Positions 14,887 to 29,673 of a stretch of 43,091 nt of DNA are shown here, one piece after another. Numbering within the stretch: the first letter of the stretch is position 1; the number at the start of each line of letters is the position of its first letter. The notes below the pieces were generated by a model that saw only the letters and a list, made by a program, of their open reading frames with translations, did no database searches and was not told the origin of the DNA. The translations under genes and the position numbers were made by a program. Origin of the DNA: Cellulomonas sp. IC4_254 (lineage in GTDB: Bacteria > Actinomycetota > Actinomycetes > Actinomycetales > Cellulomonadaceae); contig NZ_JAANNB010000008.1 in NCBI RefSeq assembly GCF_011603975.1, positions 1 through 43,091 on the forward strand, read 5' to 3'.

Positions 14887-15633
14887 CCGCCGCCGCGCCC
14901 GGCGCCCGAGCGCCCGGCGCCCGCAGCAGCACCCCGACGACCCGCCCCGGCACCGGCCGGCGGCGGGTCGTCGCGTTCTGGTGCCCGCAGGGCGCACGAA
15001 TCAGGCCTGGGACGAATGTGCACACCTGTGGACACGTCTGTGGAAACCGGTGGATGACCCCCAGGATTCGTGTGGACGGATCCTGGGGTCGTCGTGGACG
15101 GAGAAGGACGCCTGGAGCACTGTCCACGTCCGGCCGCGTCGTCCCCAGCCGGTCCACAGCCGTCGTGCACACGCCCTCCGACACGCTGACCAGCGCGAAG
15201 ACCCGCAATCCCCAGAGTGCACAGAAGCGACGATGACGACGACTGATCCCTAGGAAGAAGATCCACAGCCCGTCAAGGCTCTGCGAGCCGGCTGCTGGAC
15301 GACCGGCCGGCCGTGCCGGTGCCCGGCTCGCAGACGAGGCCCGGGACGACAGCGGCTGTGCACGACCTCCGAGGCCCCGAATCGTTCGCCCAGCGTCCTC
15401 GTGCGCCGGCGGCGCCACGCACGCCCCGCCCGGGCGGCCGCTCCCGGCACCCTCTCGTCGCGTCCTGACGAACGTTCCGGCCCCTCGGAGCGCATCCACA
15501 GCCCACCCCCGGTTCGGTACCGGACCCCTGGTCACTCGCGTAGTGTTCGGGGCGACCCCTGCCCTCCCACGGCCGGGGTCGTTCAGCACCGCGCACGGGA
15601 TCCCCGCGATCCCCCAGATCGAGAGGGTGGGGC
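14887..15633. other. oriC: Origin of replication oriC (dnaA-dnaN spacer)
   Basis: Non-coding spacer rich in DnaA-box-like 9-mers. On the left they read TGTGGA...: 15027-15035, 15039-15047, 15071-15079 and 15093-15101, with a weak one at 15049. On the right they read ...TCCACA: 15120-15128, 15150-15158, 15259-15267 and 15492-15500. Orientation therefore switches near 15105-15118. The stretch 15215-15275 is locally richer in A/T and is a candidate unwinding element. TAGTGT at 15541-15546 may be the dnaN -10. Location between dnaA and dnaN is the standard actinobacterial origin position. Confidence 0.9.
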
Positions 15634-16764
15634 ATGAAGTTCCGCGTCGAACGTGACGTCCTCGCAGAAGCCGTCACGTGGATCGCTCGCAGCCTGCCCA
15701 CCCGCCCGCCGGTCCCGGTCCTGGCCGGTGTCCGCATCGAGGCCGAGGCCGACGGCACGCTCCGCCTGGCCTCCTTCGACTACGAGGTGTCGGCGCGCTC
15801 CGAGATCCCCGCGGACGTCAGCGAGCCCGGCACCGTCCTGGTCTCCGGCCGCCTGCTCGCCGAGATCTCCCGCGCCCTGCCGAACAAGCCGGTCGACGTG
15901 CAGCTCGACGGCACCAAGGTGTCCGTCACCTGCGGCGCGAGCCGGTTCACGCTCCTCACCATGCCGGTCGAGGACTACCCGCAGCTGCCGGCCATGCCGG
16001 CGCTCACCGGCACCGTCGACGGCGACGAGCTGACCCGCGCGGTCGCCCAGGTCACCGTCGCCGCGAGCCGCGACGACACCCTCCCGCTGCTCACCGGCGT
16101 CCGCGTCGAGATCGAGGGCGAGAAGGTCACGCTGCTCGCCACCGACCGGTACCGCCTGGCGCTGCGCGAGCTCACCTGGCACCCGTCCGACCCGGGCCTC
16201 TCCGAGGTCGCGCTGGTCCGCGCCCGCACGCTCTCGGACGCCGCGAAGTCGCTCGGCGCCTCCGGCTCGGTCAACGTCGGCCTCGCGACCGGCCAGGGCG
16301 TCGACCTCATCGGCTTCGAGGCCGGCGGCCGGCACACCACGTCGCTGCTGGTCGACGGCGACTACCCGGCCGTGCGCCGGCTGTTCCCGGACGAGTCGCC
16401 GATCCACGCCGTCGTCAACACGCAGCTGCTGGCGGACGCCGCCAAGCGCGTCGCGCTCGTCGCCGAGCGGAACACCCCGATCCGGCTGACGTTCACCGAC
16501 GGCCAGGTCGTCCTCGACGCCGGCCAGGGCGACGACGCGCAGGCCTCCGAGGCGCTCGAGGCCACCCTCGTCGGCGAGGACATCGCCGTGGCGTTCAACC
16601 CGCAGTTCCTGCTCGACGGCCTGGGCGCCCTGACGACGTCGTTCGTGCGGCTGTCGTTCACGCACCCGAACAAGCCGGTCGAGTTCACCGGCCAGGAGTC
16701 GCTGGAGGGCGAGGACCTCAAGGAGTACCGCTACCTCCTGGTCCCCATCCGCTTCGCGTCCTGA
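15634..16764 (+). CDS. dnaN: DNA polymerase III beta subunit (sliding clamp)
   Basis: A 376-aa clamp with the three repeated processivity-fold domains. It begins MKFRVERDVLAEAVTWIAR and ends with the conserved EYRYLLVPIRFAS, whose last strands complete the hydrophobic peptide-binding pocket; VLAGVRIEAE and LPLLTGVRVEIEG mark the starts of domains 1 and 2. It dimerises around DNA to tether polymerase III. The ATG at 15634 has GAGAGGGTGGGG just upstream. It opens the dnaN-gnd-recF-dciA gene row. Confidence 0.98.
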   Translation: MKFRVERDVLAEAVTWIARSLPTRPPVPVLAGVRIEAEADGTLRLASFDYEVSARSEIPADVSEPGTVLVSGRLLAEISRALPNKPVDVQLDGTKVSVTCGASRFTLLTMPVEDYPQLPAMPALTGTVDGDELTRAVAQVTVAASRDDTLPLLTGVRVEIEGEKVTLLATDRYRLALRELTWHPSDPGLSEVALVRARTLSDAAKSLGASGSVNVGLATGQGVDLIGFEAGGRHTTSLLVDGDYPAVRRLFPDESPIHAVVNTQLLADAAKRVALVAERNTPIRLTFTDGQVVLDAGQGDDAQASEALEATLVGEDIAVAFNPQFLLDGLGALTTSFVRLSFTHPNKPVEFTGQESLEGEDLKEYRYLLVPIRFAS

Positions 16765-28326: not shown

Positions 28327-29178
28327 ATGACCCAACCGCAGCCGGGCCCTGCGCCCACACCTCCGCCCGTCTGCCCGCGGCACCCCGACCGCATCGCCTA
28401 CGTGCGGTGCCAGCGGTGCGGCCGGCCGACCTGCCCGGAGTGCCAGCGCCCGGCTGCGGTGGGCATCCAGTGCGTCGACTGCGTGCGTGAGGGGCAGCGC
28501 CAGCAGCGCCCCGCGCGGACCGCGTTCGGCGGCCGCGTGACCGGCGGCCGGCCGGTCGTCACGCTCACCCTCATCGGCCTGTGCGTGGTCAGCTACGTGC
28601 TCCAGCTCACGAGCGCCACCTGGACCCGGGACCTGGCGTTCGCGCCGTTCATCGGCGAGACCGAGCCGTGGCGATTCCTCACGGCCGCGTTCCTGCACTC
28701 CACGGGCAACATCGCGCACATCGCGTTCAACATGATCGCGCTGTGGTCGGTCGGCCCGTTCCTCGAGGCCTCGCTCGGTCGCTGGCGCTTCCTCGCGCTG
28801 TACCTGCTGAGCGCCATCGGGGGCTCCGTCATGGTGCTGCTGCCGGCCTCGCCCCTGGAGCTGTCCTGGGTGACCGGGGTCGTGGGTGCCTCGGGCGCCG
28901 TCTTCGGCCTGTTCGGGGCGGTGCTGGTCGTGCTGCGGCGCGTGGGGCGGTCCGCGGGCGGCATCGTCGCCGTCATCGCGATCAACGCCGTCCTGGGCTT
29001 CGTGCTCCCCGGCGTGGCCTGGCAGGCGCACCTCGGCGGCCTGGTCGTCGGCGCCGCGCTGGGCGCCGCCTTCGCGTACGCGCCGCGGGAGCGGCGCACG
29101 CTGGTCGCCGTCGGGTCCTGCGTGGCGGTCGCCGTGCTGCTCGTCGGGGCAGCCGTGGTGACCTACTCCGGGGTCTGA
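28327..29178 (+). CDS. Rhomboid family intramembrane serine protease with N-terminal zinc-binding domain
   Basis: A 283-aa protein. Residues 16-52 contain a B-box-like zinc finger (Cys 16, His 19, Cys 28, 31, 36, 39, 49 and 52). The rhomboid domain has six or so membrane helices; HSTGNIAHIAFNM is the helix-2 motif, GASGAVFGLFG carries the catalytic Ser 189, and AHLGGLVVG carries His 235. It cleaves transmembrane substrates inside the bilayer; the target is unknown. The ppiA-rhomboid-crgA order is common in actinobacteria. Confidence 0.93.
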   Translation: MTQPQPGPAPTPPPVCPRHPDRIAYVRCQRCGRPTCPECQRPAAVGIQCVDCVREGQRQQRPARTAFGGRVTGGRPVVTLTLIGLCVVSYVLQLTSATWTRDLAFAPFIGETEPWRFLTAAFLHSTGNIAHIAFNMIALWSVGPFLEASLGRWRFLALYLLSAIGGSVMVLLPASPLELSWVTGVVGASGAVFGLFGAVLVVLRRVGRSAGGIVAVIAINAVLGFVLPGVAWQAHLGGLVVGAALGAAFAYAPRERRTLVAVGSCVAVAVLLVGAAVVTYSGV

Positions 29179-29204
29179 GGCCGATCCCCAGCGTTGCTCA
29201 CAGG

Positions 29205-29234
29205 TGTGGAATTACACCGGTGTAGTTATCCACA
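29205..29234. promoter_or_regulatory. Inverted DnaA-box pair around a 12-bp palindrome
   Basis: TGTGGAATT at 29205-29213 (an inverted DnaA-box-like 9-mer), the palindrome TACACCGGTGTA at 29213-29224, then a perfect DnaA box TTATCCACA at 29226-29234. It lies in the convergent spacer between the rhomboid gene and crgA, about 14 kb from oriC. The rest of the 246-bp spacer shows no gene. Confidence 0.75.
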
Positions 29235-29424
29235 GGGTTGTGCACCGCTGGGGACACGGCGCCCGATCGCCCGGATCTTCCGCGAGATCATCGGGGGACG
29301 GGCTGGGGACAACCGGCGCCGACCTGGGGACGACGCGCCTGCGAGGCACGCGGGCCGGTGGTCCCGGGCACGGACGGGTGCCGGGCCGGGTGACGTCGAC
29401 GTCGACCCGGCCGCGGCGCTCCGG

Positions 29425-29673
29425 TCACTTCCAGCGGGTGGCCATCCCGAGCCCGACGAGCGCGAACGCGAAGCCGATCGCGAGGTTCCACGACCCGATG
29501 CCGGGGATCGGGAAGTCGAAGTTCGTCAGGTAGGTGACGACGATCCACAGCAGACCGGCGACGAGCAGGCCGCCCAGCACGGGCACGAACCACGGCGGGT
29601 TGACCGTGGGGCCGGCCGAGCGCTCGGCGGGCGCGGTGTAGTGCGACTTCTGCCGCGTCCTGGACTTGGGCAC
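29425..29673 (-). CDS. crgA: Cell division protein CrgA
   Basis: An 82-aa protein with two membrane helices (PPWFVPVLGGLLVAGLLWIV and LAIGFAFALVGLGMA) joined by a short loop (TNFDFPIPGIGSWN), ending in ATRWK. The N-terminus MPKSRTRQK and the NPPWFVP motif are diagnostic. CrgA links FtsZ, FtsI and wall synthesis enzymes at the septum in actinobacteria. ATG 29673 is preceded by AGGAGCATCCC. It is transcribed against the flow of its neighbours and lies beside the DUF881-sortase cluster. Confidence 0.96.
   Translation of the reverse strand: MPKSRTRQKSHYTAPAERSAGPTVNPPWFVPVLGGLLVAGLLWIVVTYLTNFDFPIPGIGSWNLAIGFAFALVGLGMATRWK

Follow-up and report, generated by a model that had tools for sequence, protein, structure and literature searches.

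The window analysed here is a 43,091 nucleotide stretch of the genome of Cellulomonas sp. IC4_254, in which a gene for a rhomboid-domain protease and the division gene crgA converge on a spacer with 246 bp between their stop codons; hence neither gene's promoter lies inside this spacer. The sequence TGTGGAAT-TACACCGGTGTA-G-TTATCCACA can be read directly at positions 29205-29234, and the TGTGGAA half, 12-bp palindrome and perfect DnaA box of the original prediction are therefore all present where they had been placed. This dyad forms the middle of a larger imperfect 70-bp palindrome (29185-29254; Table 1), which the original prediction had not recorded and which lies 13.6 kb from the end (15633) of the spacer between dnaA and dnaN that is presumed to be oriC. 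A scan of the rhomboid-crgA spacer for promoters (sigma-70 consensus only) and terminators revealed neither, there being no T-run terminator, and a search of the window with the Rfam gathering thresholds returned three tRNAs only, with no family at this spacer.

Table 1. Features of the rhomboid-crgA spacer and its surroundings (positions in the window).
Feature	Position	Strand	Evidence or remark
Conserved element, imperfect 70-bp palindrome containing all sites	29185-29254	.	reverse-strand self-match 75%; 26-nt arms 77% complementary
Putative McdR/ResR-type operator AATTACACCGGTGTAGTT	29210-29227	.	11/12 fixed positions of AATnACAnnnnTGTnATT
Central 12-bp palindrome TACACCGGTGTA	29213-29224	.	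sequence
DnaA box TTATCCACA	29226-29234	+	exact consensus match; shares 2 bp with operator
Second DnaA-box-like 9-mer TTGTGCACC	29238-29246	+	tandem, 3 bp past first box
Degenerate DnaA-box-like half AATTCCACA, contains TGTGGAA (29205-29211)	29205-29213	-	6/9 against consensus
Weak DnaA-box-like 9-mer TTGCTCACA	29194-29202	+	6/9 in window; TTACTCACA in many relatives; binding uncertain
Weak DnaA-box-like 9-mer GTGTCCCCA, right outer arm	29249-29257	-	mirror TCCCCAGC opens left arm at 29185
Rhomboid-domain protease gene, 3' end toward element	28327-29178	+	Pfam PF01694, 105 bits; stop 29178
crgA, 3' end toward element from opposite side	29425-29673	-	Pfam PF06781, 87 bits; stop 29425
dnaA-dnaN spacer, presumed oriC	14887-15633	.	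dnaA 13408-14886, dnaN 15634-16764, both Pfam-confirmed

Considered as a single sequence, the dyad stands out through its DnaA box. Matches to TTATCCACA with at most one mismatch number three in the window against 0.61 expected, a count reached in none of 100 shuffles, and an exact TTNTCCACA occurs twice in the 43 kb, upstream of dnaA (13329) and in the crgA spacer; the 12-bp palindrome alone is not significant, being matched at two or fewer mismatches in 29 of 100 shuffles. The strict string of palindrome plus exact box was matched in 3 of the 39 genomes searched, its own genome included, the exact letters being rare because the centre and some of the flanks are variable. A sequence-only model of the element (R1) was built from 61 copies within the genus, which align without gaps over 76 columns with a mean identity of 82%. 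It matches 78 of the 81 genus genomes, 17 of these 78 not being represented in the model, and they are the same 78 in which crgA was found; the three missed (G077, G079 and G081) are those without a crgA match. The crgA loci of 70 of the 78 were fetched (eight were left out, and nine of the 70 were excluded from the alignment, A1), and the element lies in the crgA spacer of 69, while at the remaining locus (G041) some 1.5 kb separate it from crgA, which puts it at the edge of the stretch. On contig C1 of another genus relative (G071), an R1 match at about 2 kb is flanked by dnaA and dnaN, and the element is at about 24 kb. Chance is ruled out as an explanation, as the element is conserved across the genus and is also found beside crgA and rhomboid elsewhere. 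This bears out the original prediction both in regarding the dyad as too compact to be fortuitous, the conservation in the genus being decisive, and in proposing a DnaA-box site outside oriC that relatives should keep at the same spacer.

The central palindrome closely resembles the binding site of McdR (Rv1830), an essential regulator (PMC9040748) of the MerR family (PMC10336103). DIP-seq and EMSA have established that McdR binds AATnACA-n4-TGTnATT, in which changes to the letters of the n4 centre are harmless and a change of its length abolishes the effect (PMC9040748); the same motif was confirmed with the M. tuberculosis protein, a site with three mismatches still being bound (PMC10336103). 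The operator in the window departs from the fixed positions once, by a G in place of A at position 16. All 61 aligned genus copies score between 10 and 12 of 12 (31, 29 and 1 copies, respectively). No variation is seen in these copies at positions 1, 6, 7, 12, 13, 14 and 18 of the 18-mer, whereas identity falls to 59-84% in the four central columns, between neighbours that are 100% identical, with no gaps, so that the centre is free in sequence and fixed in length. Position 16 has G for A in 58 of the 61 copies and position 3 has C for T in 27, departures that may affect the affinity of the crgA-spacer operator. The best operator score is 10-12 in 69 of the 70 genus spacers, as against 1 of 70 control stretches farther from crgA, where the one control reaching 10/12 probably represents the element of L019 in its displaced position, and where control and test stretches partly overlap at loci with less than 900 bp beside crgA. 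The palindrome is accordingly treated here as a candidate site for a McdR dimer, and the match at 11 positions makes McdR a strong candidate for the second dimeric factor that the original prediction had expected to find on it.

Other binders of the palindrome were considered and set aside: BldD, the consensus of which has a one-base centre, and NrdR, the boxes of which, as recognised by their usual consensus, flank the dyad at nrdR loci and differ from it in sequence. NapA (DUF3263, PF11662) had been entertained as an autoregulating binder because the palindrome stands before the napA/DUF3263 gene in many genomes, and was dropped once the McdR motif became available from PMC9040748. A search of the PDB with DUF3263 yielded 9n2n and 9n2g, with a close relative named as a Fis family transcriptional regulator, and six viral contigs (L348-L353) encode relatives of DUF3263/NapA.

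Within the same genome, the operator occurs at one or fewer mismatches at four sites, and its reversed control at none: the napA/DUF3263 promoter, a position upstream of a SepX/GlpR-like gene that adjoins moeA and an acetyltransferase gene, the promoter of a whiB-family gene, and the rhomboid-crgA spacer. Pfam matches to DUF3263 and WhiB exceed their cut-offs; the NCBIfam match to SepX/GlpR, at 91.9 bits, is below its curated cut-off of 150, and that to NapA, at 139.6, is below its cut-off of 160 and covers part of the protein. We take the whiB-family gene to be whiB2, and Rv0996 is presumably the gene linked to moeA and rimJ. The published targets of McdR include whiB2, MSMEG_0833 and MSMEG_5468, with Rv0430 (once printed Rv0340) and Rv0996 as the homologues of MSMEG_0833 and MSMEG_5468 (PMC9040748). 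Upstream regions of three targets are named in the running text of that paper, and the legend to its Fig. 3A mentions five DIP-seq peaks. MSMEG_0833 is the napA/DUF3263 gene, going by these inconsistently printed homologue labels, the NCBIfam NapA model and the available passages of citing papers. It is therefore likely, on sequence grounds, that three of the four sites precede homologues of published McdR targets, the fourth being the crgA spacer. A McdR orthologue is encoded in this genome (L384:2067-2726, MerR_1) and adjoins genes for a BFN-domain protein and FtsR, its orthology being called by synteny and similarity. At the ftsR-BFN-mcdR locus an orthologue was found in 26 of 27 genomes tried, the present one included, with a well conserved HTH, the f35 copy being the most divergent. 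Among fifty napA/DUF3263 loci (L298-L347), a McdR-type operator was detected at 31: the 30 loci matching the family best contributed 29, and 20 loci picked subsequently contributed 2 (f22 1/4, f37 0/5). In the present genome, TTACACGCGTGTGA at C320:18804 (L297) stands in front of an ammonium-transporter-like gene.

The operator is directly joined to the exact DnaA box, its last TT being the first TT of TTATCCACA. Across the 61 genus copies, position 3 of this box is free (A, C, T or G), the others are 95-100% conserved and the core 98-100%. The second box matches 6-7 of 9 positions, depending on the consensus used, and its columns T57, G58, C61, A62 and C63 are conserved at 90% or more, with no indels and a constant spacing of 3 bp. 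In E. coli, DnaA prefers double boxes at 2-3 bp spacing in vivo (PMC11317965); DnaA of actinomycetes dimerises through domain I (PMC13270200), a property that would suit a site with two boxes. The original description of the DnaA boxes as inverted is thus correct only in part, the left box being degenerate and a clearer partner lying in tandem on the right. Columns 23-27 of the left half are 75-97% conserved, and several copies in the genus (e.g. L035, L065 and L073) have unrelated sequence in place of the half.

The abutment of the two kinds of site also recurs outside the genus. A TCC[AC]CA core is found 0-2 bp after the operator at 9 of 11 operator-bearing crgA loci from across the class, in 7 of these 9 as TCCCCA, a weaker match for DnaA than TCCACA, with fuller boxes farther off in most. 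No such core abuts the operator at any of the 31 operator-bearing napA loci or at the three other sites in the present genome. It does so at all 16 operator-bearing loci selected with R1, namely 15 from f45 and one at nrdH-nrdI, although this tally is biased, as the loci (L276-L292) were picked by R1 matches away from crgA, one of the 17 had no operator (L284) and was dropped, and the threshold was 9/12 instead of 10. Going by these counts, the composite seems to be peculiar to the crgA spacer and to reductase genes, and not to accompany McdR-type operators in general. In f45 (Nocardioidaceae; L276-L283 and L285-L291, at about 1.9-2.0 kb), the DnaA-box core and McdR-type dyad abut ACTAGATGT-type motifs, and in the two loci read (L276 and L278) the composite is upstream of nrdR. 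In a relative from the genus it precedes nrdH-nrdI (L292:1274-1317), and it lies beside nrdH in representatives of Agromyces, Curtobacterium and Leifsonia (L123, L128, L136, L185, L201 and L210). In an actinobacterial MAG (L194:3254), a composite was seen immediately before a gene for DNA polymerase III alpha.

The level of conservation beyond the genus was studied with a 22-bp core pattern, ACANNNGTGTAGTTNTCCACAG, which holds one operator half and the DnaA box and derives from copies already seen, so that it selects for the composite and not for its place. In the named genome collection it matches at least 120 stretches, the genera among the matches listed including Cellulomonas, Nocardioides, Actinomyces, Actinotalea, Oerskovia, Georgenia, Bifidobacterium and Demequina, along with others. 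Among the 120 matches listed, 98 are within 1.5 kb of crgA or rhomboid: 81 of both, 11 of rhomboid only and 6 of crgA only, many of these single-gene cases being near the end of the stored stretch. The rest are near nrdH (6), nrdR (2) or none of the seven genes tested (14). Eight of these last 14 were scanned, giving the polymerase gene of L194, SWIM zinc-finger genes (L190 and L220), a transposase gene (L200) and four varied neighbourhoods. Leaving the present locus aside, the best 29 from the R1 search of the order (L077-L105, of which three belong to the genus) all have crgA or rhomboid, and 22 have both; the overall R1 tallies of 143 of 198 in the order and 105 of 296 in the class also take in weak and oriC-like matches and so cannot serve as counts of crgA-linked copies. 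An exact match to the 22-bp pattern was also present on a viral contig (L226:2705), and two f45 genomes (L293, at about 2038, and L294, at about 2025) carry an extra copy of the dyad in a different spacer, the contig having another R1 match at a distance of 24-29 kb.

The element fades in some families. An operator scoring at least 10/12 was found at 11 of 20 crgA loci from nine families, hand-chosen after the R1 search; five of the 20 (G363, G418, G436, G483 and G499) were known R1 matches, all with the operator, leaving 6 of 15 without them. It is present in f22 (4/4), f38 (2/2), f44 (2/2), f36, f58 and f47 (1/1 each), and absent from the crgA loci of f37 (Streptomyces-like, 0/5), f35 (0/3) and f53 (0/1). 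Exact DnaA boxes are kept at all five f37 and all three f35 crgA loci, with no exact TTNTCCACA at those of f53 and f47; McdR itself is present in f37 and f35 although their crgA spacers have no operator. In two Streptomyces-like spacers (L257 and L259) a degenerate CGTCACACCGGCGTCAA occurs near the DnaA boxes, and could be either a remnant or a variant form of the operator. On this survey of sequences, the element is conserved across much of the Actinomycetes.

A role for the element as a DNA site is likelier than control of either neighbouring gene, since it is not at a promoter and its orientation varies. We consider, with moderate confidence, that it serves as a control site close to the origin, bound by DnaA and subject to modulation by McdR. 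The observations behind this reading are the conservation of the sequence, its position, the match to a published operator, the McdR orthologue and the abutting DnaA boxes. Counting against it are the departures within the operator, the TCCCCA cores, the operator-less spacers of f37, f35 and f53, and the three McdR targets named in the text of PMC9040748, which do not include the crgA spacer.

The strongest competitor, which we regard as considerably less probable, is that the element marks the chromosome for organisation, with McdR and DnaA shaping or anchoring the origin region as a nucleoprotein complex and having no direct effect on initiation. Its placement between convergent 3' ends, the lack of a fixed orientation to crgA and the inclusion of napA, a nucleoid protein gene, among the predicted McdR targets would all be compatible with such a mark. 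However, the abutting DnaA box with its tandem partner at 3 bp points to DnaA chemistry, and the occurrence of the same composite upstream of ribonucleotide reductase genes suggests control of dosage or timing.

It is improbable that the element is a transcriptional one acting on crgA, rhomboid or an unseen small RNA, the operator blocking read-through or driving an antisense transcript. McdR is a transcription regulator, and its published targets include a division regulator, as would suit a site next to a division gene. Nevertheless, both genes have their 3' ends, not their starts, at the site, the sigma-70 consensus scan found nothing promoter-like and the search for terminators nothing terminator-like, and among 87 copies the orientation relative to crgA is divided 51 to 36. 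The same evidence speaks against promoter binding as the route by which DnaA might, as originally suggested, influence crgA.

There is slightly less to be said for the palindrome being bound by a regulator with similar sites instead of McdR, such as the neighbouring MerR protein FtsR, NapA/DUF3263 or a BldD-like protein. The mcdR locus encodes FtsR as another member of the MerR family, and the palindromes at napA loci also fit autoregulation by NapA. Yet the operator sequence, the spacing rule and the set of sites in the present genome all fit the published data for McdR, which itself binds the promoter of MSMEG_0833, the probable napA/DUF3263 gene, in M. smegmatis (PMC9040748).

The disfavoured idea that the palindrome is the stem of a bidirectional RNA hairpin terminating both convergent genes is very improbable: the RNA of the window folds well (z -3.55 on both strands), as a palindrome would, and 81.3% of cells pair in register against 33-49% when slid by 1-3 columns, as expected for any palindrome that is kept, but folding of the consensus gives a weak structure (-0.52 kcal/mol) in which 0 of 6 pairs show compensatory change, shuffles give 80.8% pairing for the full hairpin (57/500 reach the observed value), pairs changed on both sides are at chance (223/500), the slight excess in both-side-change cells (47/500) and covariation score (8/500) is of a kind that kinship of the sequences can produce, several copies without the left arm retain operator and boxes, and the spacer has neither a T-run terminator nor an Rfam family.

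For a DnaA-binding control site modulated by McdR, the following sequence of events can be envisaged. DnaA would bind the tandem boxes and a McdR dimer the palindrome, and the 2 bp common to both sites would cause the two binding events to influence each other. Being duplicated soon after the origin fires, the element would act like a titration or conversion site and set the amount of active DnaA that oriC can draw on, and high McdR would shift DnaA off the element or otherwise favour initiation. This last step agrees with the increase in copy number near the origin published for overexpression of McdR in M. smegmatis, which also represses division genes and activates dnaB, dnaN and others (PMC9040748), although the copy-number effect could be indirect, via whiB2 or blocked division. 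The element may titrate or reactivate DnaA, as the original prediction envisaged; as to direction and mechanism, we infer that titration, nucleotide exchange or competition at the shared TT might each be involved.

Several known systems bear comparison. DnaA-box clusters near the oriC of Streptomyces coelicolor, D78, H24 and H69, were reportedly described by Smulczyk-Krawczyszyn in 2006, D78 being said to limit replication; H69 takes its name from a cosmid that is said to hold crgA. Unlike the element described here, Streptomyces-like crgA spacers keep boxes without a good McdR operator (0/5). In the accounts available, datA and DARS2 of E. coli are likewise non-coding DnaA-box loci outside oriC, and act with IHF or Fis, whereas the partner at the crgA spacer would be of the MerR type. 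The latter locus is 13.6 kb from the presumed oriC, and at the level of sequence has the box cluster of a datA/DARS-type locus, with one exact box, one of 6-7 of 9 and weaker ones beside an operator. The double DnaA boxes of E. coli (Stringer 2024, PMC11317965) have the same tandem pair and 3-bp spacing, and the available passages of that paper describe no operator of a second protein within the site. The mycobacterial McdR/ResR operators (whiB2, MSMEG_0833, MSMEG_5468 and rplN) have the same 18-bp palindrome with a free 4-bp centre (PMC9040748, PMC10336103), but are described as lying at promoters, while that of the crgA spacer is flanked by two genes at their 3' ends and abuts DnaA boxes. 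A term search of the main text of PMC9040748 and PMC10336103 found no mention of crgA or DnaA. In the open-access literature, no description of the element and no paper naming both Rv1830 and crgA was found; where 'DnaA box' and crgA do occur in one open-access paper, they stand in separate places, the passages on crgA examined being in reference lists.

At the level of sequence, the element can be regarded as real, strongly conserved and assigned to DnaA and McdR, its function at the origin being put forward as a proposal. More tentatively, it might represent an origin-linked DnaA control locus of the actinomycetes' own, in which a composite of McdR and DnaA sites by crgA would switch between initiation and division, while those at nrdH, nrdR and, once, a dnaE-type gene would tie in dNTP supply and the polymerase, making McdR/ResR a regulator of replication initiation. 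To our knowledge, the control of initiation from outside oriC is poorly understood in actinomycetes, and a single conserved site joining DnaA to a cell-cycle regulator would offer a direct handle on it. McdR/ResR has been implicated in the antibiotic resilience of the tuberculosis bacterium (PMC10336103); if it does have a role in replication, this would provide a new explanation for the speed with which cells recover after drugs.
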